Virus record (IMG/VR): IMGVR_UViG_3300018432_000053
Span: 1 to 21,893 of that record
Source of the DNA: a virus
Direction: 5' to 3' (one strand)
DNA: 21,893 nucleotides
Shown here: piece after piece, positions 7,553 to 21,893 of the stretch
Layout of the letters: every line of letters begins with the position of its first letter
Position numbering within the stretch: position 1 is the stretch's first letter
Notes under the pieces: model-generated
The model's database searches: none
What the model was told of the DNA's origin: nothing
The model's input: the letters and a program-made list of their open reading frames with translations, nothing else
Position numbers and translations under genes: made by a program

Positions 7553-9309
7553 CACACGCACTAGGTTGTTATTACGCCCCAGAACATGCGCGGCAGAGCG
7601 ACAGGGATTTTATTTCTAAACTTCAACCGCCTGTCATTCGCTTGCTAGACCCCGATGTGCAGCAAATAGCCGACATGCACGCGCTTGCACCCAACGCCAT
7701 CATTGCCCCAAGAACCTGGGTGATTGACGACAACAGCGGCGCGGCGGTGCGTAACCTGATGGCTGACCCTATTAAGACGGGGCAAGACCATGCTTGGCAG
7801 TATGGCGGGCAGTTGGATCGGTGGCAAGATGAAGCGCGGCAACGCGGGCTAACATTGCCACCAACAGAGCGCATCTACTTCAACGCCGCCAATGAGCCTA
7901 ACCAGGGTGGCGCGCCTGACAAGATTGCCGCTTACAATGTGGCTTTCTTGGATGCTTGTACCGGGCTTGGCATCCGCGCTTCTGCCCTTTGTCTTGGTGT
8001 TGGCTGGCCCGACAACACTGGCCCTGATACGCCCGTCAACTGGAAGCCCTACGCTGATGCTGGCCTGGTGGAAGCCATCAAGCGCGGCAACCATTGGCTA
8101 GAACTGCATGAGTACAATTACAAGACAGGCCCGCAGGATGGTTGGCGTTGGCTTGCTGGTCGTCACCTACAATGCCCCTTCGACGTGCCTATTTTACTGG
8201 GTGAGATTGGGGTAGACAATTACGTAGACAAGCCGCGTTGGGACAAGGAAGGCGGCAATCGTGGCTGGCAAGGCAATATAAGCGCTGACCAATATGCCGA
8301 GATGATTGAGTACCATATTACGCGCTCAGATACGCGCGTCGTGGCTGCGCTCATTTTCATCACGGACTTCCGCAATAGAGAGTGGCAATCGTTCGACACC
8401 GACCCCGCCCACGGCGCATTATTGGCACGCAAAGACAACATGACACCAAAGGCAAAGCCTACCACGCCCACACAGCCGACGCCCACACCGCCCGCGACCT
8501 CTACCCCCGCGTACATCCTAGCCAAAGCTGGAGCGAATTTACGCACCGCCCCAATCTCCGGCGCAATCATCACTGCCGTGCCATATTCCGAGCAAATACG
8601 CATCATCGGCGTCATGGACACAAGCGGCTGGTTACATGTGCGCTGGCGTGATACAGAGGGCTACATGGCATCGCAGCTTGTCGGACTCGTTGCGCCTGAG
8701 CCTTTGCAGCCTGAGCCTGACAAGCCAGTGGAGCCGCCTGATAAGCCGCAGCCTATGCCAACGGGTATCTTGGATCCGCGTGTGTTACAGGCCATCCTCA
8801 ACATTGAATCGGGTGGACGCACGCATGGCGAGAATGGCAAGCCCATCATTCGCTTTGAAGCGCATGTATTTGAGGATAGAGCGGGCCATACAGGACATTT
8901 CCGCTACAACGAACTAAGGCCGTGGACAGACCAGCAGTGGCGTTCTGGCGATATTGCACCGTGGCGCAACGTCCACACGGGACAGCAGGCTGATGAGTAT
9001 GCTGCGTTTGAGTTTGCCAAAAGCATTAACCCTGAAGCTGCCCACCAAGCTATCAGCGTGGGCGCGGGGCAAATACTCGGTATCAACCACGCGCGTATTG
9101 GCTATCCAAGTGCAATCGCAATGTACAAGGCGTTTCAGAGCGCACCTGTGCAGACCATTGGCTTTATTAACTTCTTCCTGAGTGACGCTAAGTTGATGGA
9201 AGCTATACGCAACAAAGACTGGCGCGAGATAGCGCGTCGATACAATGGTTCTGGCGCGGTGGACACCTACGCACCTTTGTTGGAAAAGGCATATAAGGAG
9301 CTTGGTTAA
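7549..9309 (+). CDS. Modular endolysin: TIM-barrel glycosidase-like, SH3b and N-acetylmuramidase domains
   Basis: A 586-residue protein from ATG 7549, preceded by AGGAAAGT. Residues 1-295 read as a glycosidase-like TIM barrel. NAANEPNQ (Glu116) and LLGEIGVD (Glu219) match the acid/base on strand 4 and the nucleophile on strand 7 of clan GH-A. A Thr/Pro linker (298-320) leads to an SH3b wall-binding domain (about 322-380: ANLRTAP, SGWLHVRW, GYMASQLV). A second Pro-rich linker leads to an N-acetylmuramidase domain (PF11860-like, about 407-586). That domain shows AILNIESGGR, IIRFEAHVF, ISVGAGQILGINH and ARRYNGSG; Glu420 and Glu437 are catalytic candidates. No signal peptide is seen, so export would need the holins upstream. 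Two catalytic modules in one lysin is notable. Confidence 0.85.
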   Translation: MTHALGCYYAPEHARQSDRDFISKLQPPVIRLLDPDVQQIADMHALAPNAIIAPRTWVIDDNSGAAVRNLMADPIKTGQDHAWQYGGQLDRWQDEARQRGLTLPPTERIYFNAANEPNQGGAPDKIAAYNVAFLDACTGLGIRASALCLGVGWPDNTGPDTPVNWKPYADAGLVEAIKRGNHWLELHEYNYKTGPQDGWRWLAGRHLQCPFDVPILLGEIGVDNYVDKPRWDKEGGNRGWQGNISADQYAEMIEYHITRSDTRVVAALIFITDFRNREWQSFDTDPAHGALLARKDNMTPKAKPTTPTQPTPTPPATSTPAYILAKAGANLRTAPISGAIITAVPYSEQIRIIGVMDTSGWLHVRWRDTEGYMASQLVGLVAPEPLQPEPDKPVEPPDKPQPMPTGILDPRVLQAILNIESGGRTHGENGKPIIRFEAHVFEDRAGHTGHFRYNELRPWTDQQWRSGDIAPWRNVHTGQQADEYAAFEFAKSINPEAAHQAISVGAGQILGINHARIGYPSAIAMYKAFQSAPVQTIGFINFFLSDAKLMEAIRNKDWREIARRYNGSGAVDTYAPLLEKAYKELG

Positions 9310-14985: not shown

Positions 14986-15305
14986 ACGACGGACAGTACA
15001 CCAATCTTCGTAATTACCTAGAGGAAATCGCCAGCCAGGGCAAGCAACTGTTGGCAGAGCAGAAGCGCACGAATGAGTTATTGGAGCGCGTTGTTGCGCC
15101 CGTGCCAACATTCAACACGAAGCATATCGACTTGGATGCAATCGACCCAACGCAAGATGCTGTCTACTTGTCGGGTGGTAGCAAGATTGAGCGCGTCAGC
15201 CCACCCTTTACAGTCGAAACCGTCAAGGAAGAGCCGCTCAAGACGACTGAGACAGTCGAGGTAGTTGAGGACAAGCCCGCGACGGCGACGAAGAAGGGCA
15301 AATGA
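14982..15305 (+). CDS. Coiled-coil/acidic-tail protein of unknown function
   Basis: A 107-residue protein with an ideal Shine-Dalgarno, AGGAGGT at 14969-14975, so probably well translated. Residues 8-42 form a coiled-coil-like helix (LRNYLEEIASQGKQLLAEQK). A beta-like segment (DAVYLSGGSKIERVSPPF) and an unstructured Thr/Glu/Lys tail (TTETVEVVEDKPATATKKGK) follow. It could be a structural accessory or linker protein. Its ATGA coupling to the next membrane peptide is clear. Confidence 0.65.
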   Translation: MNDGQYTNLRNYLEEIASQGKQLLAEQKRTNELLERVVAPVPTFNTKHIDLDAIDPTQDAVYLSGGSKIERVSPPFTVETVKEEPLKTTETVEVVEDKPATATKKGK

Positions 15306-15424
15306 TACATTGGTTGCAAGGCGAAACGTTGGTGCCGAACTGGTTATTTGCCCTGATTATTGGCACAACCGTTTTAGAGTATTTGATTCGTTTTGGTCTT
15401 TGGCTTTGGCGAGGACGCAAGTGA
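15302..15424 (+). CDS. Small membrane peptide (40 aa)
   Basis: From ATG 15302 (ATGA overlap) to TGA 15422-15424, this encodes 40 residues: MIHWLQGETLVPNWLFALII leads into a helix ending in the basic stretch LWLWRGRK. It overlaps the glycosyltransferase start by GTGA. One membrane helix with a basic end suggests an inner-membrane peptide. Its coupling to a glycosyltransferase gene raises the possibility that it anchors that enzyme; this is speculative. Confidence 0.5.
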   Translation: MIHWLQGETLVPNWLFALIIGTTVLEYLIRFGLWLWRGRK

Positions 15425-16104
15425 ACGTCACCCTATGCAGCGCGTTTCGCAACAGCGCGGGCTATATTGCGCGGTACTTTGAGCAGGTCACAGCGTTGCA
15501 AGAGTCCATAGAATCGCGCGGCGATTGCCTGTATCTTGTTCTTGCCGAAGGTGACAGCACAGATGATACGCCCGAAAGGTTGGATGGCGTATTGTCGGAA
15601 TTGGGGGTAGAGGCGACGTTGCTAGGTGTAACCCACGGCGGCAAGGATTACGGCAGCGTGGTCAACGCCGAACGCTTTGCAAACCTGGCGAAAGTGTGGA
15701 ACGCCATTTGGCAGCGCATCCCAGAGGACGCCGACGCGGTTATCTTCGTGGAGTCCGACCTGATATGGGCGACCAGTACGATGCTGGCCTTGCTGGATGA
15801 CCTTGAGCATGTGCCATGCGTCGCGCCGATGGTGATGATGAAAAACGGCTGGTTCTGGGACACTTGGGGGTTTGTGCGTAATGGTCACAACTTTCGCAAC
15901 CAGCCACCATTCCATGCTGAGATGACTGCGCAAAGCCTTTGGTTTGAGCTAGACAGCGCGGGTAGTTGCTTGGTGATGCGTGGCGATGTAGCGCGCAGGG
16001 TGCATTGGCCCGCAGCGGATGTGGTCAAGGGCGTATGCAAGCAGATTATCGATGGCGGCGATAGTGTTTGGCTGAACACAAGACAAAAGGTGATGCACCC
16101 ATGA
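15421..16104 (+). CDS. Glycosyltransferase, GT-A fold (GT2- or Anp1-like)
   Basis: A 227-residue protein from GTG 15421 (GTGA overlap). The frame is open 52 codons further upstream but that part is Arg-rich shadow sequence. The N-terminus NVTLCSAFRNSAGYIARYFE and the LAEGDSTDDTPERL segment (Asp45-Asp49) fit a nucleotide-sugar-binding Rossmann half. VIFVESDLIWATSTML (Glu111-Asp113) is in the place of the metal-binding DxD motif. Later WFWDTWGFVRNG and SAGSCLVMRGDVARR resemble acceptor-site regions of GT2/Anp1-type enzymes. No membrane segment is seen, so it would act in the cytoplasm. The substrate is unknown. It is directly coupled to an acyltransferase gene, suggesting sequential sugar modification. 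Confidence 0.75.
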   Translation: MNVTLCSAFRNSAGYIARYFEQVTALQESIESRGDCLYLVLAEGDSTDDTPERLDGVLSELGVEATLLGVTHGGKDYGSVVNAERFANLAKVWNAIWQRIPEDADAVIFVESDLIWATSTMLALLDDLEHVPCVAPMVMMKNGWFWDTWGFVRNGHNFRNQPPFHAEMTAQSLWFELDSAGSCLVMRGDVARRVHWPAADVVKGVCKQIIDGGDSVWLNTRQKVMHP

Positions 16105-16727
16105 TTCACGATAACGTTCTCATCTTGAAACACGATCTCGTCACCATAGACGATACCGCCCGCGTCGATTCGTACTGCAAGATCGAAGGCGGCTTAGGCG
16201 TTCGCATTGGCAAAGGCGTGCATGTCAGCAGCTTCGCGCATCTCAACATTGGCGGTGGCTTGCTTGTTGTTGGCGACTACGTTGCGCTTACCTCTGGCGT
16301 GCGCGTCGTCACCGGCAGCAACACGGCGGCGGGACTGAGCATGTCGAGCGCGTCCCCTGTGGAGATGCAAGTGGTTGAGCGCAAGGAAGTCGTCATAGAC
16401 GACTATGCCTTTGTGGGCGCGGGTGCTACCATCTTGCCTGGTGTGCATATCGGACGCTTTGCCATCGTGGGCGCGGGTAGCGTCGTCACAAAGGACGTAA
16501 AGGCGTCTGAGGTGGTGATGGGCATCCCTGCGCGTGTAGTAGGGCATCGCTGCTTTGACACCGAGACGGGCGAAGGGTTTATCGCCTGGTTGCCTAAGCT
16601 ACGCGACTTGGCTGCACAGCGCGACATAGACCGCGTGCGCCAGCGGTATGGGGATGCGATGCCTGAGGCTATGGCAGTGGACTTGGTTGAGGCGATCAAC
16701 GCGCTGACGATGGAGGTGACGGGTTGA
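16101..16727 (+). CDS. Hexapeptide-repeat O-acyl/acetyltransferase (LbH fold)
   Basis: A 208-residue protein from ATG 16101 with AAGGTGA upstream, in ATGA overlap with the glycosyltransferase. Residues about 20-155 carry hexapeptide [LIV]-G-x4 repeats (GVRIGKGVHVSSFAHLNIGG, then VVIDDYAFVGAGATILPGVH and IGRFAIVGAGSVVTKDV), ending in VVMGIPARVVGHR. This is the canonical left-handed beta-helix of sugar O-acetyltransferases; the VGAGSVVTKDV and GIPA signature is typical. Such enzymes trimerise and transfer acetyl from acetyl-CoA to a sugar hydroxyl or amino group. With the adjacent glycosyltransferase it likely modifies a sugar on a virion or host glycan; the acceptor is unknown. A short helical tail follows. 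Confidence 0.88.
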   Translation: MIHDNVLILKHDLVTIDDTARVDSYCKIEGGLGVRIGKGVHVSSFAHLNIGGGLLVVGDYVALTSGVRVVTGSNTAAGLSMSSASPVEMQVVERKEVVIDDYAFVGAGATILPGVHIGRFAIVGAGSVVTKDVKASEVVMGIPARVVGHRCFDTETGEGFIAWLPKLRDLAAQRDIDRVRQRYGDAMPEAMAVDLVEAINALTMEVTG

Positions 16728-16970: not shown

Positions 16971-17174
16971 TTGAGCGAACGACGCGAGCTGTACCTAGCC
17001 GCTGTACCTAGCCGCTGGATTGACATTCGTTTCAACGATGGCAAGCACACGGGGCTGCGCGTCCTCAGTGGCACGACCGTCATTGAGATAAAGCGCGATG
17101 GGCGCAAAATGGTCGTGGATATTGTCGAGTGTATGCCTATTGATTTGGCTAGGGAAAAAGTGTATGATAAGTGA
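16971..17174 (+). CDS. Small beta-rich protein of unknown function
   Basis: A 67-residue protein from TTG 16971, one base after the previous stop, with GGAGTGA upstream. The sequence alternates hydrophobic and polar residues (RWIDIRFNDGKHTGLRVLSG, then TTVIEIKRDGRKMVVDIVEC), which suggests a small beta barrel. It overlaps the next gene's first codons. No family was recognised. Confidence 0.6.
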   Translation: MSERRELYLAAVPSRWIDIRFNDGKHTGLRVLSGTTVIEIKRDGRKMVVDIVECMPIDLAREKVYDK

Positions 17175-17658: not shown

Positions 17659-17718
17659 GTCAACGTAGCACCATAATCGAATCGGCGGTTTAGCCGCACA
17701 ATTACCACAAGACCGTTT

Positions 17719-17764
17719 AAGACGGGGTGGATTACTCGAAAGAGTAACCCACCCCGTCTTTTTT
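17719..17764 (+). terminator. Very strong Rho-independent terminator inside the head module
   Basis: AAGACGGGGTGG (17719-17730) plus TTACTC (17732-17737) pairs with GAGTAA (17742-17747) plus CCACCCCGTCTT (17749-17760) around a GAAA tetraloop, with one mismatch. The stem merges into six T (17759-17764). A short GCGG/CCGC hairpin lies just upstream (about 17686-17698). It splits the portal-side genes from the capsid genes, only 22 bases before the next gene. Confidence 0.92.
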
Positions 17765-17786: not shown

Positions 17787-18566
17787 ATGCCCGACCTGAC
17801 ACCCGCACCACCCGAATTTAACGAACGCATCCAGCGGCTCATCGCTGCTTACTTTGCCGACTTGCAAGAGGCGCGCATTGAACTACAGGTGCGCGACACC
17901 GCAGACGGCACGCAGACGGTGCAAGCGTGGGGCGAGGCCGATACGCCGGACAATCCAAGCGAGGCGCGCAAGTTCGACTTTAGCATCTGGTTTGCATTGG
18001 ACGTGTGGGCAACGCTTGACGACTACCAGCGCGACGCGTTGGCGTACCACGAGCTAATGCACTGTCGCTTTGACGACGCGGGCAAGCCCATGTTGGTTGA
18101 CCACGATGTTGAGGTCTTCAACAACGAGATAGCAACCTTCGGCCTGTGGTGGGGTGAAGGCGCGCAGGACACGCTAGACGCAATTGAGAATATGCCGCCC
18201 CCACATGGGGCAGAAGGAGATAGCAACATGCCGCGAGGATACCGAAGCCCAATGCAGGGGTCACATGGTTCATCGGGAGCGGGTAGTCATGGTTCATCTG
18301 GTGCTGGTTCGCACGGCTCTAGTGGCGCAGGCTCACATGGGTCAAGCGGGGCAGGTAGCCACGGCTCTAGTGGAGCCGGTTCTCATGGCTCATCCGGCGC
18401 TTTTGCTGACCCGCATTTGAGCGTGGGCGCTGACTTCGTGACCGTGCCGATTGGCGACGGGCGCACGATTGACATTTGCCCTGAGTGTTGGGAAACGCTC
18501 AAGGCGTTTGTCATCGACCAAACAGCAGGGGCTATGCAAGGTAGCCACGGTTCAAGTGGGGCGTAA
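17787..18566 (+). CDS. Putative zinc metallopeptidase with GSHGSSGA repeats
   Basis: A 259-residue protein from ATG 17787 (AGGA upstream); the open frame further upstream lies in the terminator. Residues 80-120 contain ALAYHELMHCRF (HExxH, His88-Glu89-His92), then LVDHDVEVFNNEIATFG. This spacing resembles the phage putative-metallopeptidase family, with His106/Asp107/Glu109 as further ligand candidates. From residue 158 come six perfect tandem GSHGSSGA octads, then a short domain (ADPHLSVGADFVTVPIGDGR, then TIDICPECWETLKAF) and a seventh octad as the extreme C-terminus. MQ precedes both the first and seventh copies. A strong internal ribosome site lies within (see nested start). Located just before the capsid protease, so head-related. 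Substrate unknown. Confidence 0.7.
   Translation: MPDLTPAPPEFNERIQRLIAAYFADLQEARIELQVRDTADGTQTVQAWGEADTPDNPSEARKFDFSIWFALDVWATLDDYQRDALAYHELMHCRFDDAGKPMLVDHDVEVFNNEIATFGLWWGEGAQDTLDAIENMPPPHGAEGDSNMPRGYRSPMQGSHGSSGAGSHGSSGAGSHGSSGAGSHGSSGAGSHGSSGAGSHGSSGAFADPHLSVGADFVTVPIGDGRTIDICPECWETLKAFVIDQTAGAMQGSHGSSGA
18228..18566 (+). CDS. Possible nested in-frame product: repeat domain alone
   Basis: Within the metallopeptidase gene an in-frame ATG at 18228 (its codon 148) follows AGAAGGAGAT at 18212-18221, a much better Shine-Dalgarno than the one at the gene's own start, with eight bases between AGGAG and ATG. Initiation there would give 112 residues starting MPRGYRSPMQ, made up of the GSHGSSGA repeats and the C-terminal CPEC domain without the peptidase. 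If made, the repeat protein would be in excess over the peptidase. The alternative is that the octads are only a tail of the peptidase and the purine run is chance. Confidence 0.45.
   Translation: MPRGYRSPMQGSHGSSGAGSHGSSGAGSHGSSGAGSHGSSGAGSHGSSGAGSHGSSGAFADPHLSVGADFVTVPIGDGRTIDICPECWETLKAFVIDQTAGAMQGSHGSSGA
18258..18401 (+). repeat. Six tandem 24-base units encoding GSHGSSGA, codon-scrambled
   Basis: Units occupy 18258-18281, 18282-18305, 18306-18329, 18330-18353, 18354-18377 and 18378-18401; a seventh copy is at 18540-18563. All seven encode exactly GSHGSSGA, yet no two are identical in DNA. The first serine is TCA, AGT, TCG, TCA, AGC, TCT, AGC; the third is TCG, TCT, AGT, AGC, AGT, TCC, AGT. 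Switching between TCN and AGY codons needs two base changes, so the array is old and held constant at protein level. Confidence 0.95.
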
Positions 18567-18569
18567 GCC

Positions 18570-19670
18570 ATGAGCGATGAAATTGTTCGTGAGTACCACG
18601 TCTCGACTTTTCGCGGAAAGGTTGAGGACGTACCTATAGCCGATGGCGTGGACATGGAGGAGATTCGTCGCAGCGATCCCAATGCCATGTTTGTCACGTT
18701 GCCCATTGCCGAGATTGGGGCGATCTCCAATAACGGCTTGCTGTATGACGAATCACTTGTCAACAGCATTGTGGCGCAAATCAACGCAGACCGTCCGGGT
18801 GGCATTTTGGGCCACGTTCCAGACGAAGAACGTAGCACCTCGTTTCCACTACCCGCGGGGCTGTGGGTGGGTGCGATGTTGGCAGGAGAGACCTTGTGGG
18901 CGAAGTCTTATGTACCTCCTGGCGCGGCCAGGGAGTACATGGGCAACCTCAAGAAAGTGGGCGGGCAGATTGCGACCAGCATCTATGGCAAGGGCAAGTT
19001 TGAGCGTGTGCGTGATGGCGTGCGACGCCTGACTAACTTCAAGCTCGAGAGCCTGGACTTTGCACCTCCTGGGCGCGCGGCGCTAGGGATGGGCGCAATC
19101 CCCCACGTAACAGCAGAAATGGATTCAGAACAGGAGCCAATTATGGCAGACAAAGCACAAGTGATTGCCGAGCTACGCAATGCGAAGGTAACGCCGCAAC
19201 GCGGGTGGCAACCCAGCGGCGAAACAGTGGACGTGAGCGAGATGCAAGGTCTACTCGCTGAACGTGACGACCGTATCACGGTGCTTGAAACCACCGTGGG
19301 TGAGTTCCGTCGTCGCGAGTTTGAGCGCGCTGTGGATGCGGTTGTGGTCGAGATGACGGACTGGCCCGTGCGCGAAACCGCACCCGACAGCAACGGCAAG
19401 ACCGCGAAAGACAAGCTGGCCGCACTACGCGCCATGTTCAAGCGCGCCGTCGTGGACAAGATGGGCGACGAGCAGGACAGCGCCAAAGTCGCTGAAATGG
19501 CGGCGGCGGCGTGGGAAGAAATCAAGCCCATTGCCGAGATGATGCGCGATGCATTGGCAGGGCCAGCGGCAATTGTGGGCGGGCGCGTCAGCGAGGGCGG
19601 GCGCAAGCCACTGGAAGACACGCCAGAGAATCGTGACAAGGCAATGTCCCAAATGGGCATTACGGTATAA
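18570..19670 (+). CDS. Capsid maturation protease with C-terminal scaffold-like region
   Basis: A 366-residue protein starting four bases after the previous stop. Residues about 35-175 resemble phage prohead proteases of the assemblin-like fold. ILGHVPDEERS gives a candidate catalytic His82. VGGQIATSIYGKG gives Ser137. LESLDFAPPGRAALG has the conserved Asp163 loop. From about 192 onward the protein is charged and helical (VSEMQGLLAERDDRITVLET, FERAVDAVVVEMTD), as in scaffolding domains. A strong internal ribosome site precedes Met192, reminiscent of lambda C/Nu3. The protease would cleave scaffold and capsid precursors during prohead maturation. The decoration and major capsid genes follow. 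The catalytic assignment is by eye. Confidence 0.75.
   Translation: MSDEIVREYHVSTFRGKVEDVPIADGVDMEEIRRSDPNAMFVTLPIAEIGAISNNGLLYDESLVNSIVAQINADRPGGILGHVPDEERSTSFPLPAGLWVGAMLAGETLWAKSYVPPGAAREYMGNLKKVGGQIATSIYGKGKFERVRDGVRRLTNFKLESLDFAPPGRAALGMGAIPHVTAEMDSEQEPIMADKAQVIAELRNAKVTPQRGWQPSGETVDVSEMQGLLAERDDRITVLETTVGEFRRREFERAVDAVVVEMTDWPVRETAPDSNGKTAKDKLAALRAMFKRAVVDKMGDEQDSAKVAEMAAAAWEEIKPIAEMMRDALAGPAAIVGGRVSEGGRKPLEDTPENRDKAMSQMGITV
19143..19670 (+). CDS. Possible nested in-frame scaffolding protein
   Basis: In-frame ATG 19143 inside the protease gene follows AGGAG at 19132-19136 with six bases between, an ideal site. The product would be 175 residues beginning MADKAQVIAELRNAKVTPQR, mostly helical, with a coiled-coil-like segment (residues about 30-60). 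Lambda makes its scaffold Nu3 from an internal start in protease gene C, and related phages do the same; this arrangement matches. The free scaffold would be made in excess of the protease fusion. Confidence 0.6.
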   Translation: MADKAQVIAELRNAKVTPQRGWQPSGETVDVSEMQGLLAERDDRITVLETTVGEFRRREFERAVDAVVVEMTDWPVRETAPDSNGKTAKDKLAALRAMFKRAVVDKMGDEQDSAKVAEMAAAAWEEIKPIAEMMRDALAGPAAIVGGRVSEGGRKPLEDTPENRDKAMSQMGITV

Positions 19671-21261: not shown

Positions 21262-21893
21262 ATGCGGCTGAATTGGCTTGGCTACAACTGGAGAACGTTT
21301 GATGGCTATGGGCGTTATGGCGCATACATGGCGCGTGCATTAGCGCGCGCGGGTGTGACTGTAACGCCTCACTTCACTGGCGCAGCGGACGCCCCCAAGT
21401 GGCTACAAGATGAGTGGGGTGTTGACTTTGGCATCCCCACCATCTCCTGCCTGCCCCCCTACTATCTGCGTAAGTTGCCCAGGCACGCCACAGGCCCACA
21501 TTGGCTGCTAACGATGACCGAGGGCAGCGAGTGTCCCGATGGGTGGGCTGACATCATCAACCAGAGCGGCGTAGCGCGCGTGATTGTGCCGTGTGAACAT
21601 AACAAGGATGCCTTCACGCGTGGGGGTGTAGTCGCGCCGATCTCGGTTGTGCCGGGTGGCACTGACCCGTTCGAGTTCCCGCTGTTACAGCGTGAGCGCA
21701 AAGAGGGCGCGCCTTACACCTTCCTTGCGCTTGCCGACCGTGGCAGCCGCAAAGGATGGGACGAGGTCTATGACGCCTTCTACAAGGCGTTTGGTGGCAA
21801 GACGACAGGGCAACAGGACGTGCGGCTGATTATCAAGTGCAGGCCAGAAGGCAACGCCCAGCTTGAAATGATAGCCAAAGCCACTGACCTTGA
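21262..21893 (+). CDS. Glycosyltransferase, GT-B fold (GT4-like), 3' end outside window
   Basis: The gene starts at ATG 21262 (GAGGCG upstream), eight bases after the capsid stop, and runs off the right edge after 210 codons with no stop. The start MRLNWLGYNWRTFDGYGRYG, then AYMARALARAG, is typical of GT4-type enzymes that begin with a Rossmann-like domain. Mid-protein VIVPCEHNKDAFTRGGV and VVPGGTDPFEFP are the standard inter-domain segment. TFLALADRGSRKGWDEVYDA, then FYKAFGG and VRLIIKCRPEG, form the start of the nucleotide-sugar-binding domain. It would transfer a sugar from a nucleotide donor in the cytoplasm. Its coupling to the capsid gene is unusual and hints that a virion component is the acceptor; this is inference. 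Confidence 0.82.
   Translation, partial: MRLNWLGYNWRTFDGYGRYGAYMARALARAGVTVTPHFTGAADAPKWLQDEWGVDFGIPTISCLPPYYLRKLPRHATGPHWLLTMTEGSECPDGWADIINQSGVARVIVPCEHNKDAFTRGGVVAPISVVPGGTDPFEFPLLQRERKEGAPYTFLALADRGSRKGWDEVYDAFYKAFGGKTTGQQDVRLIIKCRPEGNAQLEMIAKATDL

Follow-up and report, generated by a model that had tools for sequence, protein, structure and literature searches.

Seven copies of the octapeptide GSHGSSGA, encoded by one gene of an environmental phage, are perfect in protein, yet at synonymous sites they have been randomised further than two related phages have diverged. Perfect peptide repeats are commonly taken as recent duplications; this array provides a rare clean case in which one can ask which forces fix a low-complexity peptide. 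The gene lies on a virus fragment of 21.9 kb carrying terminase, portal and capsid genes, analysed here over its whole length of 21,893 nucleotides (the window), and, as judged from the sequence and its surroundings, it belongs to the accessory genes of the phage and stands first in the capsid operon. The explanation that we favour, at a probability of about 45%, is that this accessory gene encodes a peptidase extended by the octads and a small CPEC domain, the octads being multivalent recognition units that are probably made both as a fusion and as a free protein of 112 residues. The features concerned are the following.

17719-17760, + strand: strong hairpin with a GAAA loop followed by a T-run (terminator-like), just 5' of the octad gene; fold z = -8.6
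17787-18566, + strand: whole reading frame, comprising metallopeptidase, octads, CPEC domain and C-terminal octad; 259 aa from ATG 17787
17787-18188, + strand: metallopeptidase domain, HELMH ... HD..E, residues 1-134; PF18894
18214-18219, + strand: Shine-Dalgarno-like AAGGAG, 8 nt upstream of the internal ATG 18228
18228-18563, + strand: candidate separate 112-aa octad protein with an in-frame internal start, proposed from Shine-Dalgarno and ATG
18258-18401, + strand: six tandem GSHGSSGA octads, synonymously saturated
18402-18539, + strand: short CPEC domain, predicted beta-beta-alpha, ending in Met-Gln; AF2 pLDDT about 75
18540-18563, + strand: seventh GSHGSSGA octad, at the extreme C-terminus
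18570-19670, + strand: next gene, presumed head protease/scaffold; phrog_3219, E = 3.7e-14; 60% identity to the closest relative

The exact units lie in one frame at 18258-18281, 18282-18305, 18306-18329, 18330-18353, 18354-18377, 18378-18401 and 18540-18563, the stop codon TAA (18564-18566) coming right after the last, and the pair Met-Gln precedes both the tandem block of six and the C-terminal octad. The sequence-only reading of this DNA had described seven perfect copies, six in tandem and one C-terminal, with codons that differ in every copy and include TCN/AGY swaps of serine. This description holds throughout: all seven units are exact and in frame, no two of them are identical in DNA, and the serine swaps are present at octad positions 2 and 6. 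Tandem Repeats Finder misses the array even at a score of 30, while it picks up another, imperfect octad array on the contig; the alternative reading frames through the octads contain no supported gene.

Pairwise, the seven octads differ at 4-11 of 24 nucleotides, with a mean of 7.81 where independent draws from the codon usage of the phage would give 7.97 +/- 0.65. Codons are identical between units in 47 of 168 cases (0.28). At four-fold sites, 74% of comparisons show a difference, against 65% expected if these sites were saturated under the codon usage of the phage (P = 0.15). At least three swaps between the serine boxes are required on any tree, because all four TCN/AGY combinations are present at positions 2 and 6. 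Despite this codon identity of 0.28, the 56 octad residues show zero changes. A rough calculation (taking some 121 non-synonymous sites, one or more substitutions at each synonymous site in every unit and zero non-synonymous changes) bounds omega below approximately 0.025. Since synonymous sites are saturated and amino acids unchanged, the simplest reading would be strong, strict or long-standing purifying selection on the octad peptide, as seen within a single sequence; the earlier argument for long-standing selection on the exact octad stands in this form. The scrambling is not total, because the serine at position 5 is TCN in every unit (P = 0.03, rising to 0.09 once the three serine positions are corrected for), which may be a weak trace of common origin or of constraint. 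All of these codon statistics are based on 56 codons from one genome.

Three controls give this divergence its scale. Between the window and L033, the closest relative found, the capsid genes keep the codons of identical Gly, Ser, His and Ala residues at 59% in a decoration-like protein, 63% in the major capsid protein and 56% in the protease/scaffold; the octad units thus show more synonymous divergence from each other than the two phages do in their capsid genes. On the same contig, the imperfect array at 1923-2018 retains 25 of 30 codons where its residues match. It consists of the octads NTSVITPH, NTSVISPD, NSTVIKPH and NTSVITGD, near-identical in codons, and is part of a Phage_rep_O replication protein. 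The third control came by chance: an array of DEDMEGME octads in another phage contig (L003) has a codon identity of 0.95-1.0 and, by comparison, the look of a young array. Young tandem duplications have near-identical DNA between their units, whereas the octads share only 0.28 of their codons. The previous claim that fresh duplication does not account for them is accordingly borne out, the synonymous divergence between units exceeding that from L033, with which the window shares 80% amino-acid identity in the major capsid protein.

In codon composition, the array departs from its surroundings. Its GC3 is 22/56 (39%), against an expectation of 38.4 +/- 3.4 (69%); its flanks within the octad gene have values of 0.71 and 0.65, and the count does not drop below 28 in other runs of 56 such codons in the genes of the window. 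Among the serine codons, TCA is over-used (7 of 21 vs 8% expected) and AGC under-used, and the codon entropy of 3.75 bits vs 3.49 expected (P = 0.009) indicates a flattened usage. Because of the GC3 deviation, drift to the codon equilibrium of the phage is insufficient as an account. The RNA structure predicted for the array is weaker than that of recodings with phage usage (-55.8 vs -68.2 +/- 6.6, P = 0.015) and is not below that of recodings with uniform usage. Lower RNA structure, acquisition of the array from a foreign source or a preference for mixed codons may lie behind the codon bias.

Could the scrambling itself be under selection, synonymous differences being favoured against slippage or recombination that would alter copy number? 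The flattened codon usage would fit such natural scrambling, as would the slightly greater difference between neighbouring octads than between others (8.8 vs 7.8, P = 0.13). The self-homology of the DNA argues otherwise: the array has 12 shared 8-mer pairs, compared with 16.5 under phage usage (P = 0.39) and 7.7 under uniform usage; it has 7 shared 10-mers, compared with 7.0 and 2.5, respectively; and its longest repeat of 14 nt is not below that of recodings, whether their codon usage is that of the phage, uniform or taken from the array itself. Moreover, the mean distance between units is slightly below, not above, that of codon permutations (P = 0.046). Selection against DNA homology, as previously suggested, is consequently not supported, since shared 8-mers, 10-mers and the longest repeat are no lower than in synonymous recodings, and we consider natural scrambling quite unlikely. 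An engineered or contaminating sequence, namely a designed codon-scrambled repeat, would explain the near-uniform codon usage unlike that of the flanks, which is the outcome of designed scrambling (method in PMC12365220), and the lack of any relative of the array in the collections searched. However, the array lies within a novel environmental phage head operon, in continuity with a divergent PF18894 gene and with phage-like flanks, and a designer of scrambled codons would be expected to leave out a repeat as long as the 14 nt present here; this origin is highly improbable.

The N-terminal domain of the gene is a putative zinc metallopeptidase of PF18894 with intact HExxH...HD residues. Its match to the PhageMetallopep profile has E = 1.2e-14 and 54.9 bits, against a curated cut-off of 23.7, over positions 6-132 of 134, and H88, E89, H92, H106, D107 and E109 are invariant in 13 aligned sequences, of which 12 are homologues from IMG/VR and genomes. 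AF2 folds the peptidase as a block with pLDDT of 63-92 (residues 1-110), leaves residues 136-214 unstructured, with no predicted secondary structure in the octads, and places a beta-beta-alpha unit at residues 218-251 around CPEC. Foldseek searches of PDB with both AF2 models gave nothing significant, the best matches of the peptidase being small zinc-peptidase folds (selecase, HtpX domain) at E = 0.1-0.5.

This architecture invites two other explanations. The octads could be a soluble and flexible Gly/Ser linker joining the CPEC domain to the peptidase, their perfection being incidental, in line with their richness in Gly and Ser and with the absence of AF2 structure there. Yet a linker would tolerate substitutions, of which there are zero at synonymous saturation, and the perfect octad at the C-terminus links nothing; a plain linker is disfavoured because the second, separated copy is also perfect, and we judge it unlikely, if still deserving of some weight. 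Alternatively, the octad module could be a reservoir of zinc or nickel that loads the metallopeptidase, given that seven regularly spaced His, the CPEC pair and a zinc-type peptidase occur in one frame. Isolated His residues within flexible Gly/Ser form a weak ligand set, however, and PF18894 relatives manage without octads, so this possibility appears decidedly unlikely.

The octads may also be produced apart from the peptidase. The homologous metallopeptidases that we found end near 18228, where an ATG follows AAGGAG by 8 nt, and for this reason an internal start is proposed there. Its Shine-Dalgarno strength is -8.8 kcal/mol, stronger than the -4.0 kcal/mol of the upstream start, and a free octad protein of 112 aa may thus be made besides the 259-aa fusion.

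The genomic position of the gene is precise: it sits exactly between the hairpin and the head operon, having been either gained in the phage of the window or lost from L033. A gap of 3 nt separates it from the protease/scaffold gene, which relatives that lack the octad gene also carry. In L033 the head genes are the same and follow one another as in the window; directly 5' of its head protease/scaffold gene lies a counterpart hairpin (about 8345-8382, z = -6.4) of the same shape and GAAA loop, with a different stem sequence. In its sequence, which is incomplete or of unknown completeness, L033 has no metallopeptidase, octads or CPEC domain, and the relatives L034 and L035, with sequences of the same standing, have no match to the octad gene. 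The octad is hence not essential to this phage group, as its nearest relative is without the whole gene. The sequence-only reading had named relatives with degenerate or absent octads as evidence against constraint on the exact sequence: absence is indeed found in the nearest relative, which lacks the entire gene, while no other copy of the octad gene was found in the collections searched.

Two further elements were noted in this region. The motif AATCGGCGG(CA or TT)TAG occurs in leaders, once in the window ahead of the hairpin (17680-17697) and twice in L033 (8077 and 8306), followed by CCGC in two of the three cases; and a perfect 13-bp direct repeat, GCTGTACCTAGCC, is present in 2.3 copies at 16988-17017, close to the beginning of a small gene. 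Glycosyltransferase-like and hexapeptide-transferase genes are interleaved with the head genes (15265-16727 and 21262-21891 in the window, 6107-7586 in L033, the latter region also containing a sulfotransferase family gene, PF13469). The octad could be a modification site, its serines glycosylated or otherwise modified, as the glycosyltransferase-like (21262-21891) and hexapeptide-transferase (16068-16727) genes of the head region would suggest. But L033 has homologues of the window genes at 21262 (74% identical) and 15265 (39% identical) and yet no octads, so these genes are not octad-specific and serine modification seems very unlikely.

How, then, would the gene work in the explanation that we prefer, with octads as recognition units appended to a peptidase? 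A small PF18894 zinc metallopeptidase would have been extended in frame by the octad array and the small CPEC domain, the 259-aa fusion and the 112-aa protein from the internal start both being probable products. Each octad would act as a short recognition motif, its ligand being either a partner protein or, through the His, a metal, with several copies providing avidity and the C-terminal octad adding one more copy. Amino-acid changes in the octads would be removed, while codons would drift or be reshaped by weak synonymous selection, for instance for reduced RNA structure. Against the recognition part stands the consideration that recognition would not require each Gly and Ala to be fixed; against drift, that it predicts phage-like codon usage, yet GC3 is 39% vs 69%. 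A stronger version, in which selection maintains the perfect array with actively diversified codons and the multivalent octad is both fused to the peptidase and free via the internal start, looks rather improbable. As a concrete motif, the octad is a candidate for recognition by a partner in the assembly of the phage head or in contact with the host, and the array allows one to ask whether phages stabilise or unfold repetitive messages by codon choice.

The sequence-only reading had proposed a search for further octad arrays. Tandem octad DNA patterns were not found beyond the window in the IMG/VR contigs and GTDB genomes searched. The one hit of a looser pattern, L003, arose by chance on the strand opposite to that encoding an Asp/Glu/Met array; this 459-kb viral contig (IMGVR_UViG_3300023179_000009) encodes near-identical DEDMEGME/DEDMEGMG octads at 166-353, within a 298-aa protein. 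Searches of IMG/VR, phages and plasmids for relatives of the octad protein, of gene 18570 and of the CPEC domain returned nothing or distant short matches. GSHGSSGA octads are absent from NCBIfam, Pfam and PDB; the only hit to a PDB entry (E = 0.41) depends in part on a run of GSSGSSG. A literature search did not find a paper on the octads, its text matches being, as judged by titles, to glutathione GSH/GSSG ratios.

Compared with known systems, the gene combines familiar and unusual parts. Its first 134 residues match nearly the whole PF18894 PhageMetallopep profile, including HELxH and HD..E, whereas the homologues that we inspected stand alone, at about 130-220 aa, and have neither octads nor a CPEC domain. 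The CPEC domain resembles the end of gp74 of Mycobacterium phage DrLupo, at 47% identity across the columns that align in a two-sequence alignment, a short likeness with E = 5 when the whole phage set is searched; the small CPxC proteins of DrLupo gp74 or Predator type share with it (V/L)TVPI-D...D(I/L)CP(E/S)C...LKAFV, but are free-standing, devoid of octads and mostly equipped with a second upstream Cys pair. Two Cys pairs define the zinc-ribbon type; the domain in the window has the single pair CPEC and is for that reason not classed with these proteins. Epicuticlins likewise have perfect or near-perfect tandem repeats that are predicted to be disordered (PMC11529277), but they are nematode cuticle proteins with repeats of 49-51 residues in Ascaris epicuticlin 1 and no homology to the octads. 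With the codon-scrambled repeat genes of Tang and Chilkoti (PMC12365220) the octads share an identical peptide encoded by diversified DNA; those genes are designed, whereas the octad array does not minimise its shared k-mers.
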